A stretch of DNA of 64,000 bases from assembly GCF_001653235.2 (NCBI RefSeq), contig NC_035791.1:3596001-3660000 (forward strand), read 5' to 3'. This stretch comes from Pochonia chlamydosporia 170. Taxonomy: Eukaryota > Ascomycota > Sordariomycetes > Hypocreales > Clavicipitaceae. The translations under genes and the position numbers were made by a program. Under the pieces are notes generated by a model. The model searched no databases. It saw only the letters and a program-made list of their open reading frames with translations, and was not told the origin of the DNA. Below are positions 8,733 to 53,103 of the stretch, in pieces. Numbering within the stretch: position 1 is the first letter of the stretch; each line of letters opens with the position of its first letter.

Positions 8733-11696
8733 ATGGCAAAGGGCCAGGACACGGCGGCCCAACCGCAACGCCGACGACAATGGAAACTACCCGCCTGGTT
8801 GAACCACTTTAATCTTCATGATGGGAAAATCGTCCTCCGGTGCTGGGTCGCCGCCTGGGTCGGCTCACTGCTCATGTTCATCCAACCAACCCTCACCAAC
8901 ATGGGACTGGCGGCATTCTTCGCCCTCCTGGTTCTAGTTGCTGTGCCTCCAGCGAGCATTCTCCTAGTCTATCTACTGGCGTCGCTGTCTCTCCTCCTAG
9001 GCATGTGCTTCGGTTGGGCATGGGGCCTCTTGACAATGAAAGCTGCTCTTGCTGCACGTCCAGAGGCCGAGACGCAGCAGTCCCTAAAGGCACTTCAACA
9101 AACTGCTGCTGCACAGGCAAATCAAACGGGGCAGCCGGCCGCGTGGGAAGCTCAAGTACTTGTACACGAAGGATTTATGCTGGATGCCCGTGTCACGACA
9201 GTCTTCTATGTCATGTCTTGCGTCTTTATATACGCCCTGTGTAGGATACGCATGAAGAATGCGAAATTTGTCCTGCTGCAGCTATTTGGTATCATATCCG
9301 TGGACATCTTCTTACTTATTGGTCCTACGCTGCCAACGTTTACGGCGGACCTGGGCACCGTTCTGGTGAAACCGGCTGCCGTTGGAATTGCGTTAGGCTC
9401 GGCGTGTTGCTTGATCTTCTTCCCGCAGTCAACGTCATATGCTGTATTGGAGAAGATGGAGAAGTTGGTGCTCCTACAGGGAATTGCTGTCAGCACGACC
9501 AAAAAGCGCCTTGGTGACGATGAGGTATCAGTAACCGAGTTAGTAGAAGCAAAGGGCAAAACCATGGCTTTATACAAGGCGATGGAACCGGCTCTTGCCT
9601 TCTTGCCACTCGACTTTTCGCGTGGTCGATGGAACGCAGAGGATGTGAAGGGCCTGCAGGCGCGTGTCAGAGATATCATGACTGCGAGTTTGTCCCTGGT
9701 TGACTTTCACATTTCTCGAATCAAGGTGATTGAGAAGGAGGAGAAGCTGGAGCAGCATCACAACGCCGAAGAGAAGAAGGGTCTGGACAAGCCCAGCATA
9801 GGCAGGCACCAGATGCAGGAAAGTTCAGACCTGTTGCATGCGCTTCGAAGCCCGGAACTCGGTGAAGTACGCGATCGAACAAAGGCAGCACTCTTTGACA
9901 CAACTGCCGAAGTGTTGCAGGTTTGCTCCGAGTCTATCAAATCAGTCGCCAAGTGCATCAGCACTGTCAACAGACATCGATGGATAGGTCAGCCTTCAGC
10001 GCAGTCGTTTGATGAGCTGGCGCAAGAATTGCAAACAGAACTGGATGCCCTGCGCTCTTCCAGAGATCTGTGCATTACAAACACGACTGAAAAAGTCCTC
10101 GACACGCACCGGGATTTATTCGATGCCAAGGGTGAACTGAAGAGCCCTGGTGACGGGGGAGCTCGACTGCTTCGAGGGATAGTTGTAGCCATGGTTATTG
10201 AAGAACGAATAATCGGCATGGCGACGGCAATAGAAAAGTTGCTCGAATATGTTCTACACCTCATGAATACTCGGAAGACACACCGCATCTGGGTTCCCCT
10301 GCGCATTCGCTATGCCTTCACTTGGTTGCTAGACGGGAGACTTTCCGTCCCAGTATCCGGCACGACTACTGATGCAGCCAACGATCCAGACAGCACCACC
10401 GACCCGGTTCTCCTTCACGATCAAGCGGAAGAGGCGCATAGACGTCTCCGTGTAAGCCGTGGGGACTATGTCAGACCTCGCAAGAAGTCAGCCGTCACGC
10501 GAGCACTTATGGCTACATTCCGCTGGCTATTCAACCCTGCTGGTTTATACGCCCTCCGGATGGTCATTGTGACAGTTGCGACTGCTATACCCGCCGCTAT
10601 CCCCAGCTCAGCCGGGTTCTTCTATCGCGAAAAGGGAATCTGGGGCGTCATCAGTGCCCAGACCTGTTTACTGCCGTACATGGCCGACTTTACATTCTCA
10701 GTTGTATCTCGTGGACTTGGTACCGTCATCGGCGGCGTAATGGGAATGGTAGCATGGTACATCGGATCTGGATCTGGCGTTGGAAACCCCTACGGACTAG
10801 GTGCCATATCCGCCTTGATGATCTTGATTCTTCTGTGGTGGCGAATATTCCTCCCTCCAGCCTTCGCCCAAGCTAGCATCATGGCCGGCGCAACCTACGC
10901 TCTCGTAGTCGGCTTCAGCTACGACCACTATCACATTACACAGTATGGTCTCCCGGGCGTGGGCTACGAAGCATTCTGGAAACGACTCGTCACCGTCCTC
11001 CTCGGCTTCCTCGCCTCATGTATCGTCCAGCTATTCCCCAAGCCACCCTCCGCCGCAAACCACGTATGCAAGACACTCTCAAACACCGTCGGCACACTCG
11101 CAGACCACTACGCACTCCTCCTATCCCACTGGGGCCTCGGCCAACAGAACAGCCCTCTGAGCACAGTAGCCGAACAGATATCCCTCGACGTTGCTGAAAC
11201 GCTCGTCTCGCTCGACGGCGCCATCGCCTTGCTCAAGATGGAGCCCAGCTTCGGCCACTTCGACCAGTACACCCTCCGGGAGACGCAAAAGCTGTGCCTC
11301 GCGATGAACCAGTGCCTCGGGCGGCTGCTAGACTTGTCGAGTTCTCTCCCAAAGGAGCATCAGGACCGCTTCAGCAACGTAGTTGGTTTTCTTGACGACC
11401 ACGTAATCGGCGATATTATGGCCGTGCTTGGTGTGGTGAGATTGTCTCTCAAGACGGGCGCCCCTTTGCCGGAGAGGCTGCCTGCGCCGTTGATTCGGAA
11501 CTTTTACACGTGGTGGCATGATAAACACCGTACTGCTATGTTGAGCACGAGCTTGATCCGGAATGAGAATTACAGACGGTATTGTGTTGCTGTGTCTGCT
11601 TATTTGAGGTTTTTGTCGGCGGTGGATGATTTGGTGTTGGTTGTGAAGGGGGCGGTGGGCGAGTGTCATGTTGTGAGGCAGTGGGATGATGTGTAA
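8733..11696 (+). CDS. Aromatic acid exporter-like (ArAE/FUSC, BRE4-like) membrane protein
   Basis: Single exon, 987 residues. The layout is the fungal ArAE pattern: a first block of hydrophobic helices (about residues 33-110 and 150-245), a long soluble middle region with charged, helix-prone stretches (about 245-590), a second membrane block (about 600-770) containing RWLFNPAGLYALRM and a Gly-rich helix pair, then a soluble C-terminal domain. The family includes yeast Bre4 and is distantly related to bacterial fusaric-acid-resistance and AaeB pumps. The likely role is export of aromatic or other weak organic acids at the plasma membrane, though few fungal members are characterised. It lies downstream of a Zn2Cys6 regulator and near a nitrilase, whose products are carboxylic acids. 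Confidence 0.85.
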   Translation: MAKGQDTAAQPQRRRQWKLPAWLNHFNLHDGKIVLRCWVAAWVGSLLMFIQPTLTNMGLAAFFALLVLVAVPPASILLVYLLASLSLLLGMCFGWAWGLLTMKAALAARPEAETQQSLKALQQTAAAQANQTGQPAAWEAQVLVHEGFMLDARVTTVFYVMSCVFIYALCRIRMKNAKFVLLQLFGIISVDIFLLIGPTLPTFTADLGTVLVKPAAVGIALGSACCLIFFPQSTSYAVLEKMEKLVLLQGIAVSTTKKRLGDDEVSVTELVEAKGKTMALYKAMEPALAFLPLDFSRGRWNAEDVKGLQARVRDIMTASLSLVDFHISRIKVIEKEEKLEQHHNAEEKKGLDKPSIGRHQMQESSDLLHALRSPELGEVRDRTKAALFDTTAEVLQVCSESIKSVAKCISTVNRHRWIGQPSAQSFDELAQELQTELDALRSSRDLCITNTTEKVLDTHRDLFDAKGELKSPGDGGARLLRGIVVAMVIEERIIGMATAIEKLLEYVLHLMNTRKTHRIWVPLRIRYAFTWLLDGRLSVPVSGTTTDAANDPDSTTDPVLLHDQAEEAHRRLRVSRGDYVRPRKKSAVTRALMATFRWLFNPAGLYALRMVIVTVATAIPAAIPSSAGFFYREKGIWGVISAQTCLLPYMADFTFSVVSRGLGTVIGGVMGMVAWYIGSGSGVGNPYGLGAISALMILILLWWRIFLPPAFAQASIMAGATYALVVGFSYDHYHITQYGLPGVGYEAFWKRLVTVLLGFLASCIVQLFPKPPSAANHVCKTLSNTVGTLADHYALLLSHWGLGQQNSPLSTVAEQISLDVAETLVSLDGAIALLKMEPSFGHFDQYTLRETQKLCLAMNQCLGRLLDLSSSLPKEHQDRFSNVVGFLDDHVIGDIMAVLGVVRLSLKTGAPLPERLPAPLIRNFYTWWHDKHRTAMLSTSLIRNENYRRYCVAVSAYLRFLSAVDDLVLVVKGAVGECHVVRQWDDV

Positions 11697-26028: not shown

Positions 26029-28617
26029 ATGGCCGTGTCTATTTCCCAAGTAGCATTTGAACATCACCGCACCGCCCTAGGTATCGCGGAGACGAAACCC
26101 CGAATATCGTGGCGCTTCGGAGGTGATGCCCCCAACTGGCAACAATCCTCCTACGACATCCAGGTAAACCGTCATGGACACGCCCTGGCCAAATCATACA
26201 CCACTTCGCAATCTGCCTATGTTCCCTGGCCAGACGAGCCTCTCAAGTCAGCTGAAGCAGCGAAAGTGAGAGTTCGTGCTCACGGCAAAGCAGGACAGTC
26301 CTCAACACCATGGTCCGACTGGGTGGCCGTTGAGACGGGGCTTTTAAGCTCGCAAGACTGGGCTGGCGCGGGTCCAATTGCTGCTGATCGTCCTTCAGAG
26401 GTAGATGGTCCCAAGAGGCCGATATACTTTCGAAAGTCGTTTCCTGTGGATAAGGACGTACAAACTGCGAGGCTGTATATCACTGCGCTGGGGTTATATG
26501 AAGCAGAGATAAATGGGCGTCGGGTTGGGGATGCGGTAATGGCACCGGGGTGGCAATCGTATAACTTTCGTCATGTCTATGATACGTATGACGTTACGGA
26601 TCTGTTGAAGAAGGGAGATAACGCTATTGGGGTGTTGGTTGGTGAGGGTTGGTATGCCGGCCGTTATGCATTTGAGAATAATCGCAATATCTGGGGTGAT
26701 ACGATTGGTCTTCAGTCACTGCTTCGAGTCACGCTGAAGAATGGGACGGTGCTCACAGTGCCGTCTGATGTGTCGTGGAAAGCAAATACCGGACCCGTTG
26801 TGTCTTCCGAGATATATGACGGAGAAACATACGACTCTCGAATGGAAGCCGACATGAAGGGCTGGTCTAGTTCCTCCTTCAAGGACGACAAGTGGCTTGC
26901 GGTTAAGAAACTACCCCCCGTGAAAGGGCAGTTAGTTCCCCCTGATGGCCCTCCCGTCCGCAAGTTGGAAGAGCGTAAGCCAGAGAGAATCTTTACATCC
27001 GCCTCGGGAAAGACGGTGCTTGACATGGGCCAAAACATGGTGGGCTGGCTACGTCTCAAGGTCCACGGCCCAAGTGGAACAAACATTACGCTTCACCACG
27101 CCGAGGTAATGGACAATGGAGAACTAGCACTGCGGCCATTGCGATCTGCCAAAGCAACGGATACTTTGATCCTCAACGGGGACAAGAATCAGACGTGGGA
27201 GCCGCACTTTACGTTTCACGGATTCCGATTCGCGCAGGTAGATGGCTGGCCGGCAGACACACCACTTACACGGGATTCCATCAAGGGCATCGTCGTCCAC
27301 AGCGACATCGAGCAAACGGGCTGGTTCCAGTCCTCGCACGAGCTGCTCAACAAGTTCCACGCCAATGTGCAGTGGTCCATGAAGGGCAACTTCCTGAGTA
27401 TTTCAACCGACTGCCCGCAGCGAGACGAGCGGCTGGGCTGGACGGGCGACGCACACGCCTTTGGACCAACAGCCAACTTCTTATACAACACGGCTGGCTT
27501 CTGGAGGGGATGGCACAAGGACATGTGGTCTGAGATGCAGAGACAGGGACTGATGCGGGTGCCGTTTTTCGTTCCAACGATTCCGCCGGACCATATCGAC
27601 ACGCCGGCCGCGTTCTGGGGAGACGTTGCCGTAGGCGGACCTTGGAATCTATTCCAGTTCTACGGCGACAAGGACATGCTCAAGGAGCAGTATCCGCAGT
27701 CCAAGGCATGGATTGACAAGGGCGTCCCCCGCAAGGAAGACAGGTTATGGGATCGCAGCGGTCCTCAATTCGGCGACTGGTTAGATCCGAAAGCACCGCC
27801 AGAGAATGCCGGCGCAGCTACAACACACGCATATCTCGTGGCGGATGCGTATCTCGTACGGATGACGGAGCTGCTAGCCAACATGTCTTCTATTCTAGGC
27901 GACAAGACATCCGCAGACGAATACACCAAGCAGCACGCCGCCCTGCGGACCAACTTCCAAAAGTCATGGATGGTGAACGGCGCCATGGCGAACCGCACAC
28001 AGACGGCTTACGCGCTCGCCCTCGACTTCGGCTTATACACCGACGACAAGCAAAAGGCGACGGCTGCAGCCACGCTCCGAGACATAGTCGCAAAGAACGA
28101 CTACCTCGTCGGATCGGGCTTCGCCGGCACGCCTGCGCTCGCACCGGCGCTCCAGTCCATAGGCGCAGTCGACGACTTCTACTCGATGCTGCTGCAGACA
28201 AAGGTCCCGTCGTGGCTGTACCAGGTGGTCATGAATGGCACCACGACGTGGGAGCGCTGGGATAGCCTGCTCGCCGACGGACACGTCAACCCCGGATCGA
28301 TGACTAGCTTCAACCACTATGCTTTCGGGGCCGTGGCAGACTGGGTACATCGCACGATAGGCGGTCTTGCGCCAGGTGAAGCTGGCTGGAGGACTGTTGC
28401 GGTTGCGCCCATTCCAGGAGGGGGCATCACGCATGCTGATACCAAGTTTGTGAGTTCGTATGGCGAGGTGAGAGCGCAGTGGGATATTGACGGGGGGAGG
28501 TTCAAGCTGCGGGTTTGGATTCCGCCGAATTCGAGGGCCGTGGTGACGATGCCTAGGAGTGAGAAGGTGAGGAGTGTGGGATCGGGATATCAGGAGTTTG
28601 AGGAGGTGTGGACGTAG
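26029..28617 (+). CDS. Alpha-L-rhamnosidase, glycoside hydrolase family 78
   Basis: Single exon, 862 residues, a typical GH78 length. GH78 enzymes remove terminal alpha-L-rhamnose from flavonoid glycosides, pectic rhamnogalacturonan or other rhamnosides by an inverting mechanism. The N-terminal beta domains include the LYITALGLYEAEINGRRVGD segment and the GEGWYAGR motif. The (alpha/alpha)6 catalytic domain contains DCPQRDERLGWTGDAH (about residues 460-475), the family hallmark with the acidic catalytic pair. WLYQVVMNGTTTWERWDS and SFNHYAFGAVADWVHR lie toward the C-terminus. There is no N-terminal signal peptide, so an intracellular enzyme acting on imported rhamnosides is likely. No rhamnose-pathway partner lies next to it. 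Confidence 0.95.
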   Translation: MAVSISQVAFEHHRTALGIAETKPRISWRFGGDAPNWQQSSYDIQVNRHGHALAKSYTTSQSAYVPWPDEPLKSAEAAKVRVRAHGKAGQSSTPWSDWVAVETGLLSSQDWAGAGPIAADRPSEVDGPKRPIYFRKSFPVDKDVQTARLYITALGLYEAEINGRRVGDAVMAPGWQSYNFRHVYDTYDVTDLLKKGDNAIGVLVGEGWYAGRYAFENNRNIWGDTIGLQSLLRVTLKNGTVLTVPSDVSWKANTGPVVSSEIYDGETYDSRMEADMKGWSSSSFKDDKWLAVKKLPPVKGQLVPPDGPPVRKLEERKPERIFTSASGKTVLDMGQNMVGWLRLKVHGPSGTNITLHHAEVMDNGELALRPLRSAKATDTLILNGDKNQTWEPHFTFHGFRFAQVDGWPADTPLTRDSIKGIVVHSDIEQTGWFQSSHELLNKFHANVQWSMKGNFLSISTDCPQRDERLGWTGDAHAFGPTANFLYNTAGFWRGWHKDMWSEMQRQGLMRVPFFVPTIPPDHIDTPAAFWGDVAVGGPWNLFQFYGDKDMLKEQYPQSKAWIDKGVPRKEDRLWDRSGPQFGDWLDPKAPPENAGAATTHAYLVADAYLVRMTELLANMSSILGDKTSADEYTKQHAALRTNFQKSWMVNGAMANRTQTAYALALDFGLYTDDKQKATAAATLRDIVAKNDYLVGSGFAGTPALAPALQSIGAVDDFYSMLLQTKVPSWLYQVVMNGTTTWERWDSLLADGHVNPGSMTSFNHYAFGAVADWVHRTIGGLAPGEAGWRTVAVAPIPGGGITHADTKFVSSYGEVRAQWDIDGGRFKLRVWIPPNSRAVVTMPRSEKVRSVGSGYQEFEEVWT

Positions 28618-45400: not shown

Positions 45401-45605
45401 GGGTGTCAGATCTCCCAACAGACACTCCCTATTCACTACCTAATTCCCAAGAGTTGAATTGCCAATGCATACGTCACACCGAATCGTTTTAGTCGTGCAG
45501 CCGAGCTTCAGTTCAATTTGGGATGACTGAGCTTTATTCCAACATCCTAGTCGCCCTGTGCGCCTCCAAATAGCCGCCCTAAGGTCCAACGCAAAGCTCA
45601 AACCT
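42443..45605. other. Gene desert, second part
   Basis: No supported gene. Minus-strand ORFs at 42589-42885, 42892-43203 and 43207-43458 follow one another in different frames with somewhat protein-like composition, perhaps old coding remains. The Cys-rich plus-strand frame at 44296-44793 has no recognisable domain. Confidence 0.35.
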
Positions 45606-46057
45606 CTACTTGCATTCTGCAAATCCCCCTCGCCATTTACATTTATGAAGTTCATTATCTTCGGCACACTAGCAAAATATAATAGTTAGCATTCTTTAAC
45701 TTTAGAATATATAGTCTCTTATCTATTAACTTACAGGCGAATCTACACTACAACCGATTTCTTTTAGCTTCTTATCCGTATCATAAATAAGACAAGCACC
45801 ATATGTGTGTGTGCCCCAAGGGCGACGGCATGACTAGCGAAGCACAATTTAGTTAGTTTACTGCTTAGCATTTTGTACTCCCTTCCTTGCCTGCTACGAC
45901 GAACCCCATTGACGGTTACGGTTACAGGGCCATTTTCACGAAGCCCATTGGCCGGGTGCTTCCTAGACCGAGCGACCGACCCCTTCGGAGAGCCAGGGCT
46001 CCCCCCCTTCGCAGCGCCGGCAAACAGGACTGTAATAAGAATTGCGATTAACTTCAT
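45606..46057 (-). CDS. Small secreted cysteine-rich protein, unknown family
   Basis: Three short exons: 46057-45926, 45833-45735 and 45668-45606; introns of 92 and 66 bp; 97 residues. The signal peptide (MKLIAILITVLFAGAAKG) is followed by a basic, Gly/Ser/Arg-rich segment to about residue 44. The compact C-terminal half has six cysteines, at 46, 58, 72, 78, 87 and 96, ending two residues before the stop, an arrangement expected for three disulfides. The second intron is textbook: GTAAGT donor, TGCTAACT branch, TTGCTAG acceptor. The first acceptor is also good (ACTAACT branch, CGCTAG), but the donor is GTAACC at 45925. A second GTAACC 6 bp downstream would add two residues. TATATATATA lies about 25 bp before the ATG. 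It sits in an AT-rich island inside a gene desert, as fungal effector-like or antimicrobial proteins often do. No family was recognised and no activity is assigned. Confidence 0.65.
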
Positions 46058-46275
46058 TTTTTTTGGTAAGAGAGACAAATATATATATAAGTTAATATTT
46101 AGTTCTTTAACTTTAATAGTTGCGTGGAGAACTGGGAGAGATAATAATATAGAAAGAGCAAAAAACTAGTCTATTATAGAGTTTTTAATATAATATTTTT
46201 ACCTTTATAAATAGCGCTTAAAGCAAGAGTAGGCTATTATTTACATTATCTGCTGCGGCAGAGGTAGTAAGCAGA

Positions 46276-46485
46276 GCATTGCTTGTATTGTATTTATTGT
46301 ATTTTTTGGGGTTTGCTTGTATTTTGTATTGTATTTTTTTTTTGTATTGTATTGTGTTTAATACAATACAAAATACAATATATAGAGAATTCTATGTATT
46401 ATATTTAACAATATAATACAAAATACAATACATAGGGTAGGTAAAAAATACAAATACAATACAAAATACAATACAAAGTACAATC
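46276..46485. repeat. AT-rich imperfect palindrome of TTGTA / TACAA units
   Basis: The left half is a string of TATTGTATT-like units, and the right half carries their complement (AATACAATAC). The region could fold into a long hairpin centred near 46385-46405. Two sub-palindromes are nested around TAGAGAATTCTATG. It lies about 220 bp upstream of the small secreted protein gene. Confidence 0.75.
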
Positions 46486-46790
46486 AATGCTCTATCACAG
46501 GCGGTGGTGCCAATCACCCAAAGTACCGCACCAAAGGCGGCCTTGAGAAAACAGCCAATATGCCTCTCACCGCCCTCTCCGGTGCATGTGACTTGGATGC
46601 ATTTAATGCTCAAGTCGCGCTGCGCGTTTATGTGCTGTATTCTTAGACTGTAGAGTGGCTTGGTAAGATACAGTATCAATTGATGGTTTGTAAGTTTGCA
46701 GACACGTTCAATTAGGATTACTTGGACGGCGCAGGGAACAATAGCCATTATCAAGTTGGGCAGCACAGGCACTTCCGGAGAGGTGATTAC

Positions 46791-46802
46791 CTACCTAGGT
46801 AG
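46791..46802. repeat. Palindrome CTACCTAGGTAG
   Basis: Perfect 12-bp palindrome, extending to 18 bp (TACCTACCTAGGTAGGTA). Shorter copies of its core (TACCTAGGTA) occur at 4121 and 37590. Confidence 0.8.
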
Positions 46803-47045
46803 GTAGTTATCACAGTGTTTTCAATTTCAAGCTTATATCCAATCATCATGACAGCAACGTCTGGTCTTTCCACGTTAGGCCACCATCTAAGTTACTCCGT
46901 ATCGTGGCACTTTGACTGATACTGATTTTGACAATCCAGTCATCCAGTCCTGACGCGAGGTAGTGCTCAATGTTCACAAGTCGGCGACTTCGCCGAGCTT
47001 ACCTTTGCTGACTTGGATGCAATCAAGCCTCACAACATGCACCAA

Positions 47046-52954: not shown

Positions 52955-53058
52955 GATAACACTGATCCGGTTAACAAGTTACATACCATGATAACACTGA
53001 TAAGATAACAAGATTCATACCATGATAGCACTAGTCCAGTCAGCAAGAAACATACCAT
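52955..53058 (+). repeat. 35-bp tandem repeat, three diverged copies
   Basis: Copies at 52955-52989, 52990-53023 and 53024-53058, each starting GATARCACT and ending CATACCAT. They lie between the two convergent genes. Confidence 0.85.
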
Positions 53059-53103
53059 GATCATTGTAAATGAGAAAACCTCCACCATCCTGTCTCGCTA
53101 GAT

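Follow-up and report, generated by a model that had tools for sequence, protein, structure and literature searches.

An intact three-exon gene was found on the minus strand at positions 45606-46057 of the window (the whole 64,000-nt stretch analyzed here) in Pochonia chlamydosporia 170, a fungus that attacks nematode eggs and is of interest against plant-parasitic nematodes. The gene is one of eleven family loci in its own genome, its predicted product shares six invariant cysteines with those of nine sister copies, and the pattern of variation is inverted, with introns that are better conserved than exons. Sequence comparison confirmed the gene as real, with a predicted spliced structure. We consider it fairly probable that the family is lineage-specific and encodes secreted, disulfide-stabilized proteins acting as putative effectors or antagonists, for which we infer transcription, secretion, disulfide formation, a target, and an activity.

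Gene model and predicted protein

All-frame translation of 45560-46100 reproduced the three exons proposed in the earlier note (46057-45926, 45833-45735, and 45668-45606), which translated as claimed, with both introns GT-AG and the six cysteines at residues 46, 58, 72, 78, 87, and 96 of that model. The claim that three separate reading frames were in use had to be corrected to two, since exons 2 and 3 lie in one genomic frame; intron 2, 66 nt in length and containing in-frame stops, lies between these two exons of the shared frame. For intron 1 the acceptor side stood, but the start at 45925 was revised to 45904, the position of a donor common to 10 of 10 copies. The originally proposed donor (GTAACC at 45925) was present in only two copies, those of the window and of contig C11, whereas GTTCGT or GTTTGT in phase 0 was found in all ten, so GTTCGT at 45904 was taken as the most likely donor; GTTCGT is not the commonest donor type. 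The end of exon 1 is most likely shifted by 21 nt, which would give an exon of 46057-45905 and a predicted protein of 104 aa with cysteines at 53, 65, 79, 85, 94, and 103, although use of GTAACC at 45925 in the window copy is possible.

In the revised model, exon 1 (45905-46057; 51 aa) carries the start codon, a signal-like N-terminus, and a basic, hypervariable pro-region, the first 18 codons (46004-46057) forming the conserved signal-peptide-like stretch according to Kyte-Doolittle hydropathy. Intron 1 (45834-45904; 71 nt) runs from GTTCGT to CGCTAG with CTAAC placed 23 nt before its end, and intron 2 (45669-45734), better conserved than any other part, runs from GTAAGT to TGCTAG. Translation and alignment of the ten products placed domain cysteines 1-3 in exon 2 (45735-45833; 33 aa) and cysteines 4-6 in exon 3 (45606-45668; 20 aa plus stop). 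Because the junctions are in phase 0, the protein is simply three in-frame pieces joined together. Alignment also delimited a 3' UTR stretch common to the sister copies (45561-45605) and a shared upstream region (46058-46190) with an element at approximately 46140-46169, all of these features being on the minus strand.

The ten predicted products ranged from 78 to 157 aa and comprised a signal-like N-terminal part of 18-20 aa, a pro-region of 5 to ~87 residues, and a six-cysteine domain of 52-55 aa. All six cysteines of the domain first described in the window copy were invariant in 10 of 10 products, as were, within the domain, Gly63, Lys75, Pro84, Trp96, Gly99, and Ala101. The proposed signal peptide was borne out as far as a hydrophobic, signal-peptide-like N-terminus by Kyte-Doolittle only, with a best 9-residue mean of 3.36 for the window copy and a range of 2.93-3.40 over the ten copies. 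The basic stretch likewise recurred, as evidenced by net charges of +4 to +21 and proline contents of 9-27% in nine of the ten pro-regions (L006, with only 5 residues, was excluded). Codon usage at the fixed residues was itself nearly fixed: 59 of the 60 cysteine codons were the commonest codon of their own position, and an invariant glycine and an invariant alanine were encoded by GGT and GCA, respectively, in 10 of 10 copies.

The family and its genomic setting

When the gene region was searched at the DNA level against its own genome, 15 matches were obtained at 11 or more loci, the window included. Two divergent copies used as queries recovered these 11 loci again, with 17 and 14 matches, respectively, the first query giving one further isolated 44-nt match on C3; these match counts are lower bounds. 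Thus, what had been described as a single gene has ten sister loci that the earlier note missed. Ten copies retain exons 1-3, namely, the window copy on C2, those on C11, C5, and C8, and two each on C6, C1, and C3, while the eleventh locus, on C4, lacks an intact set of these exons; the family is therefore spread over eight contigs. Among the ten copies keeping exon 1, this exon was stop-free in frame 0 and interrupted by stops in both other frames in every case. All ten copies open intron 1 with GTTCGT or GTTTGT and intron 2 with GTAAGT, both introns being in phase 0. The distance from the start of a branch-type CTAA[CT] motif to the intron end is constant among the ten, at 23 nt in intron 1 and 21 nt in intron 2, and the introns end in TAG, once in CAG. 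Because eleven loci of the same family occur in the own genome, the gene lies beyond chance assembly, and the original argument that a hidden spliced gene of this kind was unlikely to arise by chance is strengthened by the fact that all ten copies with exon 1 retain the frame, the cysteines, and the branch motifs. In the related trio L005, L008, and L010, exon 3 runs beyond the usual stop and ends 4 to 16 residues later. Two of the eleven copies, L004 (C1, ~8,596,000) and L010 (C8, ~22,000), lie within ~25 kb of a contig end and are possibly subtelomeric.

The C4 copy (L020:4764-6791, minus strand; G000:C4 5,015,766-5,017,790) has a promoter and N-terminus of the same kind as the rest of the family, but its exon 1 continues as a single 675-aa open reading frame (ORF) composed of 19% proline and 16% arginine that contains 14 GRPxRT-like units and ends inside the former intron 1. 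Downstream in this copy, exon 2 has degenerated, intron 2 and exon 3 can be recognized, and the cysteine domain is lost. A copy split by insertion was ruled out by the continuity of the 675-aa ORF, and the encoded protein had no further match in the own genome and no Pfam family.

An AT-rich setting beside a palindrome had been proposed for the gene. The AT-rich inverted repeats on its upstream side are real (46279-46489, with direct repeats, including a 12-nt tandem unit at 46447-46484), and the block shared with the C11 copy (45564-46962; four aligned pieces of 90.6-95.3% identity) covers the gene, the upstream region, and these repeats. Dinucleotide ratios in the window and ten other loci (9 kb each), judged against customary RIP thresholds, were RIP-like on at least one flank at 8 of 11 loci, with TA/AT of 1.41 to 1.87 on the RIP-like flanks; the exceptions were L016, L018, and the window copy itself, which showed no such ratio within its 3.8-kb flanks. 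Repeats of ~200-600 bp were common to several family loci. A ~600-bp repeat, 81-91% identical, was observed near several family copies, at L012 (2336-3552), L013 (4548-5162, directly behind the gene), L017 (5981-6578), and L021 (1013-1627). Elsewhere in the window we noted a complete bacterial-type alpha-L-rhamnosidase with Rha78-type Pfam domains in one 862-aa ORF (26029-28617, plus strand), a 35-nt tandem repeat of 3.1 copies with 78% matches (52955-53061), and a single-exon neighbor (8733-11696) whose nearest named record was from Metarhizium brunneum at 81% identity.

Divergence of introns and exons

The introns proved to be better conserved than the rest of the gene, a feature missed by the earlier note. 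Mean pairwise differences over the ten copies were 0.147 for intron 1 and 0.095 for intron 2, compared to 0.378 for exon 2, 0.376 for exon 3, 0.250 for the signal stretch, and 0.551 for the pro-region, and variability changed stepwise at the splice sites. In each of the 45 (non-independent) pairs, exons 2 and 3 together were more divergent than the introns; the pooled exon-to-intron ratio was 3.11, with a 95% interval of 2.41 to 4.20 from a bootstrap over columns. On one fixed tree, the tree length was 0.62 for the introns, and codon positions 1, 2, and 3 had lengths of 2.84, 2.08, and 2.64, respectively. The introns were also slower than other non-coding neighbors: in the seven copies whose stop was comparable (directly after the last cysteine plus one residue), the 45-nt 3' UTR differed by 0.246, against 0.166 for intron 1 and 0.110 for intron 2, and in the seven whose promoter could be aligned, 110 nt of promoter differed by 0.275, against 0.108 for intron 2. 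Within intron 2, 41 of 66 positions were invariant in 11 of 11 loci, which is more than splice signals should need.

The fast evolution that had been suggested for the locus holds for the loops and the pro-region, which were far more variable than the introns. A plain claim of positive selection was dropped, however, because the average dN/dS was below 1 (Jukes-Cantor, 0.49 versus 0.83; M0 omega, 0.722) and mean Nei-Gojobori pS (0.474) exceeded pN (0.354), with pN greater than pS in only 6 of 45 pairs. Both pN and pS were above the intron figure in all 45 pairs. Fourfold-degenerate third positions in codons that were unreplaced in a given pair differed at 0.228 (87/382), against 0.121 (725/5992) for the introns, and 841 of 1231 replaced codons differed at two or three bases.

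Two readings of this inverted conservation were considered. In one, the family is young, its introns are near-neutral, and its loop codons change very fast; the fixed codons favor such youth. In the other, the family is older and its introns are constrained; the 3' UTR, promoter, and fourfold-site figures favor some intron constraint. Either way, the pattern is a clear, testable anomaly, reflecting very fast exons in a young family or a real function in very short fungal introns. It is a plausible minority position, to which we give about one chance in three, that the introns are conserved as carriers of function, such as a regulatory element or regulated retention, in a family older than its introns suggest. 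The lower divergence of the introns than of synonymous sites in every pair, their lower divergence than the 3' UTR and the promoter in the subsets compared, and the invariant intron 2 positions all point toward it. On the other side, the codons of conserved residues are kept as well (the cysteine codons above all), as would be expected of a recently arisen family whose introns are nearly neutral and whose loop codons vary strongly; furthermore, there was no Rfam match in the window, L002, L003, and L005, and no convincing covarying RNA structure in the introns. Intron RNA structure was rejected as an explanation, as the predicted structures comprised 15 and 6 pairs with a single both-sides change per intron.

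Interpretation and known systems

Searches for relatives agreed with the earlier statement that no family could be recognized, in that Pfam, NCBIfam, and the PDB yielded no relative. No Pfam match above cut-off was obtained for the three exons apart, the ten products, or nine domains; the family profile gave zero PDB matches at E values up to 10, and exon 2 alone gave a single one at E 1.5. Matches that were below cut-off or confined to a single member were set aside, namely, Pvs28 (E 0.064 and 0.046), Cupin_3 (0.071 and 0.029), DUF4632 (0.19), and mRNA capping enzyme (0.11) in Pfam, and an NCBIfam RiPP precursor in 1 of 10 products (E 0.08). Rfam returned zero matches in the window, L002, L003, and L005, and a tRNA scan of the window found none. 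In the protein database a single query produced 2 candidates, none scoring, and a ten-row profile produced 2352 candidates with 1 match, P0121, an 87-aa protein on a 1,388-base contig that corresponds to exon 1 of a close kin of L004 (a C1 copy) read into intron 1; relative to L004 the exon 1 frame is kept and 7 of 87 residues are changed, all within the exon part. The family is likely to be unannotated in this database, and only likely, because the search requires shared 5-residue words and excludes unlike lengths, and the window's own proteins are nameless there. Since the protein searches made found no annotated relative, Pochonia secretome lists may miss a whole class of candidate interaction proteins. 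An excerpt of PMC5773674 gives 157 small cysteine-rich secreted proteins for P. chlamydosporia, and none of the listed literature on intron conservation in fungal secreted families or on small secreted and six-cysteine families of Pochonia was recognized as matching.

Under the explanation that we favor, each of the ten copies would encode a secreted precursor in which a signal peptide of 18-20 aa is followed by a basic pro-region, hypervariable and often rich in proline, and then by a six-cysteine domain. The precursor would enter the secretory pathway and three disulfides would hold the small domain, whose variable inter-cysteine loops may bind something outside the fungus, be it a nematode egg or animal, a root, or a competing microbe; the cationic part, cleaved or not, could aid sticking to negatively charged surfaces. 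Duplication combined with changes in loops and pro-region would then generate an array of related proteins, much as in venom peptide families. That the proteins serve the fungus's own wall, adhesion, matrix, or self-recognition is unlikely but deserves consideration, since the strongly basic pro-regions (+4 to +21 in the nine copies other than L006) and the proline- and arginine-rich 675-aa ORF of C4 would suit a structural or adhesive role; loops more variable than expected for a shared structural part and copies lying apart on eight contigs argue indirectly against it. It is highly improbable that the copies are pseudogenes or that the open frames came together by chance: the C4 copy without its cysteine domain fits such a view, yet all ten copies with exon 1 preserve frame, splice sites, and cysteines although their sequences have changed greatly, and variability steps at the splice sites.

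A further reading, which we regard as rather doubtful, is a fungal venom-like family in which functional constraint acts on both short introns, regulated retention being one example. If this were true, keeping intron 1 would yield a secreted basic, proline-rich protein without the cysteine domain and splicing it would yield the six-cysteine product, and the C4 copy would be fixed in the form lacking the domain. Retention of intron 1 leads to a stop 6 to 13 codons past the donor in 8 of 10 copies; against this reading, the window and C11 copies reach a stop only at codon 47. It also appears improbable, though somewhat short of remote, that these are divergent PAF/AFP antifungal proteins (PF11402), in which a signal peptide and a pro-sequence precede a six-cysteine barrel of ~55 aa directed against competing fungi. 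Six cysteines in ~52 aa behind a putative signal peptide and pro-region resemble that arrangement, and one member gave below-cut-off Pfam matches (E 0.31 among the ten products and 0.083 among the nine domains). The match amounted to 13.6 bits against a curated cut-off of 25 (one of nine domains, L002 excluded), and the profile scored 10.41 against four PAF/AFP sequences, a value equaled or beaten by 35 of 100 cysteine-fixed shuffles and 33 of 100 full shuffles; in addition, the PDB library that gave no match to the family profile includes PAF/AFP entries. With Pfam below cut-off and profile similarity no better than that of shuffles, kinship was judged unsupported. A PF11402 search of the own genome was uninformative, because 14 control genomes gave no match either. 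For P. chlamydosporia, PMC7827515 makes mention of a gene for an antifungal protein, and likeness to it was checked here by the PAF/AFP comparison only.

The effector or antagonist reading can be set beside several known systems. PAF/AFP proteins have six cysteines in ~55 aa, a signal peptide (putative in the present family), and a pro-sequence in common with the predicted products, but their cysteine spacing is not the same. Introner-like elements are near-identical short introns occurring in several genes of one genome; here, by contrast, the introns are confined to two positions of one gene family, and searches with intron patterns allowing up to 3 mismatches hit nothing but family loci (10/10 and 9/9 places), on which basis such elements were rejected.

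Conotoxin families, as described in excerpts of PMC3823881 and PMC10561478, have precursors of signal, pro-region, and cysteine-framework domain encoded mostly in three exons, with position-specific cysteine codons and variable inter-cysteine loops, and the present family resembles them in each of these respects as far as those sources go. The codon likeness (59 of 60) is also expected if the family is merely young. The sequences are unrelated as far as is known, the organism is a fungus, not a snail, and the family is not known to act as toxins; the likeness is one of evolutionary mode and not of kinship. Moreover, variability here peaks in the pro-region, and loop diversification with dN/dS above 1 was not seen, the loops being variable with an average below 1 (M0 omega, 0.722).

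Fungal small secreted cysteine-rich proteins are likewise short, with a signal-like N-terminus, an even number of cysteines, and no known domain, and their copies often lie beside repeat-rich DNA; the cysteine-rich domain with conserved cysteines that marks them is present here, all six being invariant in ten of ten products. As far as the searches go, we have a new family of effector-like, putatively secreted six-cysteine proteins with a putative function, distinguished from that group by its eleven loci, its unusually conserved introns, better kept than the exons, its very variable basic pro-region, and the one copy that has become a 675-aa repeat ORF.
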